From contig JAKBKY010000008.1 in assembly GCA_021832345.1 (NCBI GenBank), positions 1 through 64,000 on the forward strand: DNA of 64,000 nucleotides, written 5' to 3'. The position numbers and the translations under genes were made by a program. Below the pieces are notes generated by a model. That model was given only the letters and a program-made list of their open reading frames with translations, ran no database searches and was not told the origin of the DNA. Within the stretch, counting starts at the first letter, position 1, and the number at the start of each line of letters is the position of its first letter. This document shows, in pieces, positions 18,342 through 61,072 of the stretch. The stretch is from a bacterium. Lineage in GTDB: Bacteria; Vulcanimicrobiota; Vulcanimicrobiia; Vulcanimicrobiales; Vulcanimicrobiaceae.

Positions 18342-19213
18342 ACGTCGTTACGCTGCGCAACGTGCGCAAGAGCTACGGTGCAAGCGTCGCCCTGAAAGGT
18401 ATTTCCCTAGAGATAGACGACGGCGAGATCGTCGCCTTGCTTGGCCCCAACGGCGCCGGGAAGACCACCACGCTCGAGATTCTATTGGGGCTGCGTCGCC
18501 TGGATGCGGGGGCGGTGGTTGTTTGCGGCGGATCCCCGAGCGACGCCGTTGTGCGGACCGCGATCGGTGCAACGCCGCAGGCCAGCGACTTTCCGGAGAT
18601 GCTCCGCGTACGGGAACTGCTGGCCTTCGTCGCGGCACAGTATCCTGCGCCCGCGGATCTCGGGTCAACGCTGAGCGCGTTGGGAATCGGAGCGCTTGCC
18701 GACCGGTACGTCGGCGGGCTCTCGGGCGGGCAGCGTCGCTCCCTTGCGTTGGCGCTCGCCTTCATCGGCAATCCCCGCCTCATGGTCCTGGATGAACCGA
18801 CAACCGGCCTCGACGTGGACACTCGCCGTTTGGTGTGGAAGCAGATTGCCCTCGCCTCACAAGAGCGGCGTACGATCCTCTTCGCAACGCACCATCTCGA
18901 GGAAGCCGAGATGCTCGCAACGCGTGTAGTCGTCATCAACTGCGGCGAGATTGCCTTCGACGGAACACCGGCAGCGTTGCGGCAATGCTATGCCACGCGC
19001 CGTCTCGTGTACGTGGGCGACCCCTTCGATCCGTCGTCGTATGGTCTCGACGCACGGGTTACGGTACAGGCTGGGACGGTCACCGTGACCACACCCGATA
19101 CGGATGCTGCCATCCGAGCGCTCGTAGCAGCGCAGGTTCGGTTTACGAGTCTCCACGTCGTGGCCGACTCGCTGGAGACCGCATTCCTCGCCATGACAGG
19201 AGGGTCACCGTGA
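18338..19213 (+). CDS. ABC transporter ATP-binding protein
   Basis: 291 residues. Walker A GPNGAGKTTT, signature LSGGQRRSLALALA, Walker B LMVLDEPTTGLD and the H-loop FATHHLEEAE are all present. It is a CcmA/DrrA-type exporter ATPase with a C-terminal extension of about 80 residues (Val-rich strands). Coupled by ATGA to the regulator and by GTGA to the permease. The exported substrate is unknown; lipid, bacteriocin or drug export are the usual roles. Confidence 0.92.
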   Translation: MNVVTLRNVRKSYGASVALKGISLEIDDGEIVALLGPNGAGKTTTLEILLGLRRLDAGAVVVCGGSPSDAVVRTAIGATPQASDFPEMLRVRELLAFVAAQYPAPADLGSTLSALGIGALADRYVGGLSGGQRRSLALALAFIGNPRLMVLDEPTTGLDVDTRRLVWKQIALASQERRTILFATHHLEEAEMLATRVVVINCGEIAFDGTPAALRQCYATRRLVYVGDPFDPSSYGLDARVTVQAGTVTVTTPDTDAAIRALVAAQVRFTSLHVVADSLETAFLAMTGGSP

Positions 19214-19950
19214 GATCTCTGGGGCTTATCGACATCTACGCGCGGCTCATGTTCCTCGAACTTTTTCGCACACCGGCCTACGTCGTTCCGACCGTCGTCT
19301 TCCCGGCGTTATTCTTTGCGATGTTTGCCCTCCCGTGGGCGCGTACGCCCGGGCTCGCCGATACGGAGATGCTCTCGTTCGTTGCGATTGCCGTCATCGG
19401 TGTGACCCTCTTCCAATTCGGCGTCGGCGTTGCGGCCGAACGCGCTCGGCCCTGGGAGCGCTACCTGCGGACGTTGCCCGCGAACGTGGCGATTCGCTTC
19501 GCAGCGCGCTCTCTCTGCGCGCTGCTCTTCGGCGCGCTCGCCGGGGCGTGCGTCGTTGTGGTCGCGCGGCTCTTCTCGCCGATCGATCTGAATGGGCCGC
19601 AGTGGGCGCTGCTGGCGCTCTACGCGGTGCTCGGAGGCATCCCGTTCGTGCTCTTTGGAATAACGATCGGGTACTGGTCGAACGCGCGGGCGGCGGTGGC
19701 CATCGCGAACCTCTGCTATATGCTGCTCGCGTTTGCCGGCGGTTTGTGGGTGCCGCCGGCGTTCTTGCCCGCGCCGATAACGCTTGTCTCGCCGTATCTG
19801 CCCACTCGAGCGTTTGGCGAACTGCTCTGGAGCATCGCCGGCGCCGGTCATGCCTCTGCATCGCTCGTGGTGTTGGCGGCCTACACTGCACTCTTCACGA
19901 CGCTTGCCGCCGTCGGCTATCGTCGCGACGAACAAGCCCGTTATGTTTAA
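19210..19950 (+). CDS. ABC-2 type transporter permease
   Basis: 246 residues and six hydrophobic helices of the ABC-2 membrane family: an N-terminal amphipathic stretch (IYARLMFLELFRTPAYVV), FQFGVGVAAERARPWERYLR between helices 2 and 3, and GGLWVPPAFLP before the last ones. GTG 19210 overlaps the ATPase TGA (GTGA) with AGGAGGG 6-12 nt upstream; an open frame further left is a shadow of the ATPase. The TAA stop is the first part of the 128-bp repeat element. Confidence 0.88.
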   Translation: MRSLGLIDIYARLMFLELFRTPAYVVPTVVFPALFFAMFALPWARTPGLADTEMLSFVAIAVIGVTLFQFGVGVAAERARPWERYLRTLPANVAIRFAARSLCALLFGALAGACVVVVARLFSPIDLNGPQWALLALYAVLGGIPFVLFGITIGYWSNARAAVAIANLCYMLLAFAGGLWVPPAFLPAPITLVSPYLPTRAFGELLWSIAGAGHASASLVVLAAYTALFTTLAAVGYRRDEQARYV

Positions 19951-20074
19951 GGGCGCCTGATACATCCAGGCACTCGTCTTGAACCCTCGGAGAACGCACC
20001 TGCTTCGTCATGTACTCAGTCACAGATCACGCTGTATATGCTCCCTCGCACCTGGATGTATCAGGCGCCCTTAA
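19947..20074 (+). repeat. 128-bp repeat element with 24-bp perfect terminal inverted repeats, copy 1
   Basis: The left arm (19947-19970, beginning TTAAGGGCGCCTGATACATC) is the exact reverse complement of 20051-20074. Between them lies an 80-bp core. A second copy of equal length and orientation is at 60945-61072; the cores differ at about 10 of 80 positions and are almost identical over CTCAGTCACAGATCACGCTG. The element begins on the TAA stop of the ABC permease gene and ends 61 nt before the next gene start. As RNA it would form a long stem with a folded loop. A non-autonomous mobile element or a repeated transcription/RNA-end element are both possible; no transposase is present. Confidence 0.85.
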
Positions 20075-60948: not shown

Positions 60949-61072
60949 GGGCACCCGATACATCCGGACACTCGTCTTTGATCCTCGGGAAACGCATCTG
61001 CTTCGTCGAGTGCTCAGTCACAGATCACGCTGTAGATGCTCCCTCGCACCTGGATGTAGCGGGTATCCGGAA
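60945..61072 (+). repeat. 128-bp repeat element, copy 2
   Basis: Same length and orientation as 19947-20074, again beginning over the TAA of the upstream gene. The core around 61015-61035 (CAGATCACGCTGTA-type) is nearly identical, but the terminal arms have diverged: the left reads ATAAGGGCACCCGATACATC, the right pairs with it only partly. It lies between convergent genes, 21 nt from the end of the PilZ-like gene, so it may also mark the end of transcription. Confidence 0.8.

Follow-up and report, generated by a model that had tools for sequence, protein, structure and literature searches.

In the usual picture of a MITE, selection keeps the ends and the middle is filler. REPIN, a palindromic repeat, is partnered by RAYT, a Y1 (HUH) transposase. 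Bacterial MITEs derived from IS5 and IS630, such as RUP of pneumococcus with IS630-Spn1, are short and non-coding, have IS-like terminal inverted repeats and target duplications, and occupy intergenic sites in dozens of copies; for RUP, no part other than the ends is known to be important (PMC2229807). ERIC (127 bp) and NEMIS/Correia likewise combine small size with hairpin potential, intergenic position and a proposed action as RNA, with orientation being crucial for ERIC action (PMC2229807). In IStrons, a structured RNA (a group I intron) rides on the ends of a DNA transposon (PMC4227781).

The repeat described here was found in a 64,000-nt stretch of DNA (the window). It has all of the above features of IS5- and IS630-derived MITEs, but one structured core is common to MITEs with unrelated IS-family ends, and this is the unusual part. 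It resembles ERIC and NEMIS/Correia in length, hairpin potential, position and proposed RNA action; however, it contains tandem G·A loops, shows no strand preference, and had no Rfam match (at gathering in the window, or in seven element loci searched up to E 1). Compared with IStrons, it carries a hairpin of ~68 nt without a group I intron, splicing evidence or an internal transposase gene; no intron was among the Rfam results for the seven loci, and the elements are too short for a group I core. Palindromic repeats are found both here and in REP/REPIN systems with RAYT transposases, and end-only 26-bp palindromes also occur here, whereas target duplication and inverted ends resembling those of ISs are indicative of DDE transposases. 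Literature searches returned nothing on this repeat, nor on MITEs of this group. In the present study, mobile-element anatomy, family sizes, end matches, a conserved structure and the combination of bodies with differing ends were established at the level of sequence. Here the part that is kept is the middle, a precisely shaped hairpin whose non-Watson-Crick loops are fixed, and the ends switch between transposon families. Overall, the best explanation would be a modular, orientation-independent RNA hairpin carried by many MITEs, to which we assign a probability of about 0.6.

Anatomy and copies of the window repeat

The first-pass annotation had reported a 128-bp repeat with 24-bp exact terminal inverted repeats that occurs twice, at the same length and in the same orientation. 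The inverted repeat of copy 1 was indeed perfect over 24 bp (19947-19970 / 20051-20074). On each side, it consists of 20 bp of element end and 4 bp of a palindromic target duplication, TTAA; the true extent of copy 1 is therefore 19951-20070 (120 bp), with TTAA on either flank. The left TTAA also supplies the stop codon of the upstream gene (ORF 18835-19950, ends TAA). Copy 2 (60949-61068) has the same length and orientation, and its ends are decayed. Over the 128-bp spans, the two copies differ at 5/24 positions on the left, 10/80 in the core and 7/24 on the right, in agreement with the earlier description of a core differing at about 10 of 80 positions and more diverged ends. The features are as follows (R1 denotes a covariance model of the hairpin).

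19947-19950, no strand: left target-site duplication TTAA of copy 1; same 4-mer at 20071-20074
19951-20070, minus (hairpin strand): copy 1, short 120-bp form of a 163-bp MITE with GGGCRCC ends; 22 copies aligned end to end
19951-19970, plus: terminal inverted repeat GGGCGCCTGATACATCCAGG of copy 1; perfect inverted repeat
20051-20070, minus: terminal inverted repeat at the other end of copy 1; perfect inverted repeat
19998-20064, minus: hairpin module of copy 1; R1 match, 42.6 bits, E 8e-10 in the window
20015-20048, minus: most conserved heart of the hairpin, CGAGGGAGCATA-N10-TCTGTGACTGAG, from alignments of hairpin modules
20071-20074, no strand: right target-site duplication TTAA of copy 1, matching the left 4-mer
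60949-61068, minus: copy 2, short form of the same MITE; flanks ATAA / GGAA, not matching
60996-61059, minus: hairpin module of copy 2; R1 match, 37.9 bits, E 1.8e-8 in the window

The element is able to fold end to end. Relative to the family, both ends of copy 1 (19951-19970 and 20051-20070) have an identical one-base deletion (CCTGATACATCC in place of CCTCGATACATCC), as would result if one end had served to correct the other.

That the repeat occurs twice is true of the window only; in the genome that contains it (G000; 2.34 Mb, 11 contigs, 98% complete), about 26 copies were found, on 10 of the 11 contigs. At full length, the element measures 163 bp, and 18 copies are of 161-163 bp. The short form (120-122 bp) comprises both window copies (copy 2 being L017 in the family alignment), L003 (G000:C5:11708) and L005 (G000:C3:301549), and one deletion of ~41 bp between GCACC repeats is common to all four. 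A/T-rich target duplications of 4 bp were identical in 11 of 22 copies, compared with 3.3 expected, and none of 20000 shuffles reached this number. The family thus has terminal inverted repeats in an element of <500 bp, target duplications, dispersed copies and no transposase of its own; as judged from these features, the window repeat is an internally deleted, non-autonomous transposable element (MITE). Given the target duplications and IS-like terminal repeats, the window elements move, or moved, as MITEs.

The earlier statement that no transposase is linked was borne out for the two DDE families searched, PF01609 and PF13358, both of which are absent from the whole G000 genome. When the assembly was scanned for window-family ends with up to three mismatches, no full IS with such ends was found; apart from chance-level matches, all GGGC-type ends lay in MITEs or end-only palindromes, and a partner IS with the same ends in G000 was accordingly rejected. 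The end-only 26-bp palindromes (GGGCACCTGGATTTATCGAGGTGCCC and variants) are located at G000:C11:176576-176601 (L035), G000:C5:192398-192423 (L034) and G000:C7:about 105700 (L032), and one of them has CTAG on either flank. They are MITEs reduced to two fused ends, with a REP-like look.

Among the 18 long copies, mean pairwise differences were lowest in the core (hairpin module; 0.043), higher in the terminal repeats (0.112) and highest in the sub-terminal arms (0.13-0.19), the core being about 3 times less variable than the ends. Conserved cores within one family could partly reflect recent common ancestry; the core is also conserved across genera. The first-pass annotation was hence right that the core is more conserved than the ends, but its hint that this pattern speaks against transposition was unsupported, given the 4-bp target duplications, the IS5-type-like ends, and sister MITE families that match IS5-group and IS630 ends.

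Hairpin structure, covariation and distribution

On the window minus strand, the core is a 68-nt hairpin interrupted by two or three internal loops of tandem G·A. The minus strand reads CGAGGGAGCATA-N8..10-TCTGTGACYGAG, and this core recurs in other genera within elements of quite different ends. In copy 1, the outer left part of the hairpin is replaced, owing to the short-form deletion, and its heart has two tandem GA/GA loops with two G-C/G-U pairs between them. A covariance-model check for compensatory changes, proposed at the outset, found them. In a sequence-only alignment of 25 modules (A2), 95.3% of pairs were standard for one structure, versus 25-43% when partners were slid; 11 pairs had changes on both sides, and the covariation score was 0.401, compared with 0.130 for shuffled alignments. 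In a larger alignment (127 matches, 105 distinct), which was fitted to the covariance model and hence leans towards the model structure, 89.6% of the designed pairs formed, versus 23-48% when slid. The tandem loops remained GA/GA in 97/105 and 92/105 distinct copies, the third loop switched as a unit between A·G and C·A (50 versus 46), and the G·U beside the loops was fixed in 101/105. Outside this fixed pair, G·U and A·C mispairs stood at 62:24, counts that are not independent as the copies are related; the excess of G·U favours the GA strand as the folded one. As read from these alignments, the data show that selection has maintained a single strand that folds, its stems varying through compensatory changes and its G·A loops staying fixed.

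L003 and L005, two of the four short-form copies, lack the outer hairpin strand and have also lost the first GA loop (CCGG, TCGG). This would follow if the hairpin as a whole were the unit under constraint and, from this small number, suggests that breakage of the hairpin releases the constraint.

R1 identified 47 hairpin modules in G000. The search of relatives recommended by the first-pass annotation was extended with this model to one phylum, in which 57 of 149 genomes had matches (23 of 70 genera among the better genomes); the loci examined were skewed to high-scoring copies. Nearly all positive genomes belong to the same family, two (G063 and G064) to another family of the order, and one with a weak match (G092) lies elsewhere. 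When ~85,000 species genomes were scanned with a window-family-specific pattern, the sole match, on a Clostridiaceae contig, was due to chance, and the repeat was absent from the viruses searched. The relative G008, absent from the list of genomes with hairpin modules, has 28 PF01609 matches, with over 20 near-identical copies of one transposase gene; module number thus does not simply follow IS number.

Transposon ends combined with the hairpin

The MITEs around the hairpin in the listed loci have ends of at least eight types, among them IS5-like and IS630-like ones.

GGGCRCCTCGATAAATCC
GGGAA(C/G)CTCTGAAGAAGTC; elements of ~280 bp with two mutually inverted modules at a spacing of ~111 bp
TAGGAG(C/G)CTGTCGG
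(T)TAGCAGGTTGCGG
CTAGTGT...
AGTGNAGGCCGTCAAGCAG
AGGGAGACCCGAGAGATATGG
GTGCCCCGG(C/A)TCATAG
Further end types beyond these eight

Many elements have two modules on opposite strands, and thus one for each reading direction. MITE ends were compared with IS ends, the matches being short (~20 bp). An IS5-group element in G125 (transposase NF033581, E 1.2e-93) has the ends GGGAAGCTCTGA, as in two-module MITEs, one of which (L123) lies in the same genome. The ends of an IS630 element in G124 (NF033545, E 2.8e-76) are like those of MITEs L147 (of G000) and L136. The consensus end of the window family matched the end of L224 at 15 of 18 positions with one gap, and 0/2000 shuffles were as good; the best end matches of G125 and G124 likewise gave 0/2000 each, and a few weaker cross-matches were within chance. 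Both L224 and L221 contain PF01609 transposase ORFs, and IS5-type is used for them in this broad sense. The window-family MITE ends resemble those of such IS5-type ISs in relatives. Carriage of the hairpin beside IS630 transposase genes was also considered and rejected, as no R1 match was present within the IS630 loci fetched.

On a tree of hairpin bodies (112 columns, weakly resolved), end classes were clustered but mixed, with 18 changes compared with a minimum of 6. For the CAGGTTGCGG class, the starred branches require three changes or more. L124, with GGGATGCCCTGAAGAAG ends, is nested together with L129 and L130 (GCGGGCTGCGG and GCAGGTTGCTG ends), and two-module elements of G064 with CAGGTTGCGG ends fall within the two-module group that has GGGAA ends. 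The boundaries between some end classes (IS5-like variants) may be gradual, but such grading hardly accounts for a step between IS5-like and IS630-like ends.

Genomic context and working form of the hairpin

Copies are mostly intergenic and often lie just downstream of stop codons. In 69 single-module copies with both neighbours, taken from the best matches rather than at random and surveyed with a simple home-made gene caller, the GA strand was the same as that of both neighbours in 20 and opposite in 19, with neighbours convergent in 20 and divergent in 10. This lack of strand preference argues against one-orientation action on the mRNA of a neighbouring gene, and a role as an mRNA regulator of neighbours was rejected on these counts.

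In the RNA-hairpin reading, the ends would be recognised, now or formerly, by an IS5-type transposase acting in trans from another source. The hairpin body has been combined with several kinds of transposon ends, IS5-like and IS630-like included, in one family and, more rarely, elsewhere in the phylum. The working form would be RNA read from the GA strand in transcripts crossing the element, and a shared host protein would bind it through the tandem G·A loops. The hairpin is probably a protein-binding site that aids persistence of the element; the benefit (transcript stability, insertion tolerance, or recruitment of a transposition factor) would fall to the element itself rather than consist in regulation of particular neighbouring genes. 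If the hairpin acts as RNA, it would be a mobile RNA module using DNA transposons as vehicles. More tentatively, and at somewhat less than even odds, it may represent a novel class of structured RNA in bacteria, spreading as a passenger, a tandem-GA hairpin that repeatedly acquired unrelated transposon ends (IS5, IS630 and others), sometimes with one copy per strand for either direction, and so a selfish RNA module tied to no single transposase. With the 68-nt motif and the ready covariance model, the question of how MITEs persist in bacterial genomes becomes testable.

Almost identical covariation would be predicted for a hairpin of RNA and for one of single-stranded DNA, and we would judge RNA to be roughly twice as likely as DNA to be the working form. 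C-GA-G tandem mismatches are stable in DNA too. The GA strand could thus fold when single-stranded (on the lagging strand or as a cruciform) and aid transposition, end synapsis or host-factor binding, as would suit the end-to-end folding and the lack of orientation bias relative to genes. However, RNA more naturally accounts for the fixed G·U(T) wobble and for the excess of G·U over A·C, and unrelated transposases (IS5 and IS630) would all need to profit from one internal sequence; this explanation is the strongest competitor, though rather unlikely.

Clearly less probable is a host-useful mRNA element that stabilises or cuts neighbouring transcripts. ERIC and NEMIS offer precedents (PMC2229807), and the intergenic positions past stop codons would fit, but the copies lie at many different loci without strand preference, and the excess of convergent over divergent neighbours (20:10) fits mere insertion tolerance.

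MITE transcripts commonly fold into stem-loops (PMC10969869), and the elements might be ordinary MITEs without a selected function, whose paired changes arose by hairpin-templated repair (quasi-palindrome correction) and whose conservation comes from young copies. The same base missing from both ends of copy 1 is what such correction would give. It would, however, also turn the GA/GA loops into normal pairs, and the retention of these near-invariant mismatches across genera weakens this explanation, as does a core that is less variable than the ends within one family; we regard it as improbable. Chance duplication of a palindromic stretch, suggested by the presence of only two copies in the window, is refuted by the ~26 family copies and 47 hairpins in the genome and has a negligible likelihood.

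Two minor observations concern short sequences adjoining or nested in other elements. A similar end-only palindrome of the other MITE type (TAGGGAAGCTCTGACTTCTTCAGAGCTTCCCTA; L162, G029:C11:32433-32452) directly adjoins the apparent start of an IS630-like transposase gene with different ends. Also, TGTCATCCTGAGCG(G/A)AG, a common bacterial repeat, is nested in the two-module MITE L072 (G103:C104) and is present in both ends of the IS5-group element L225 (G125:C83).
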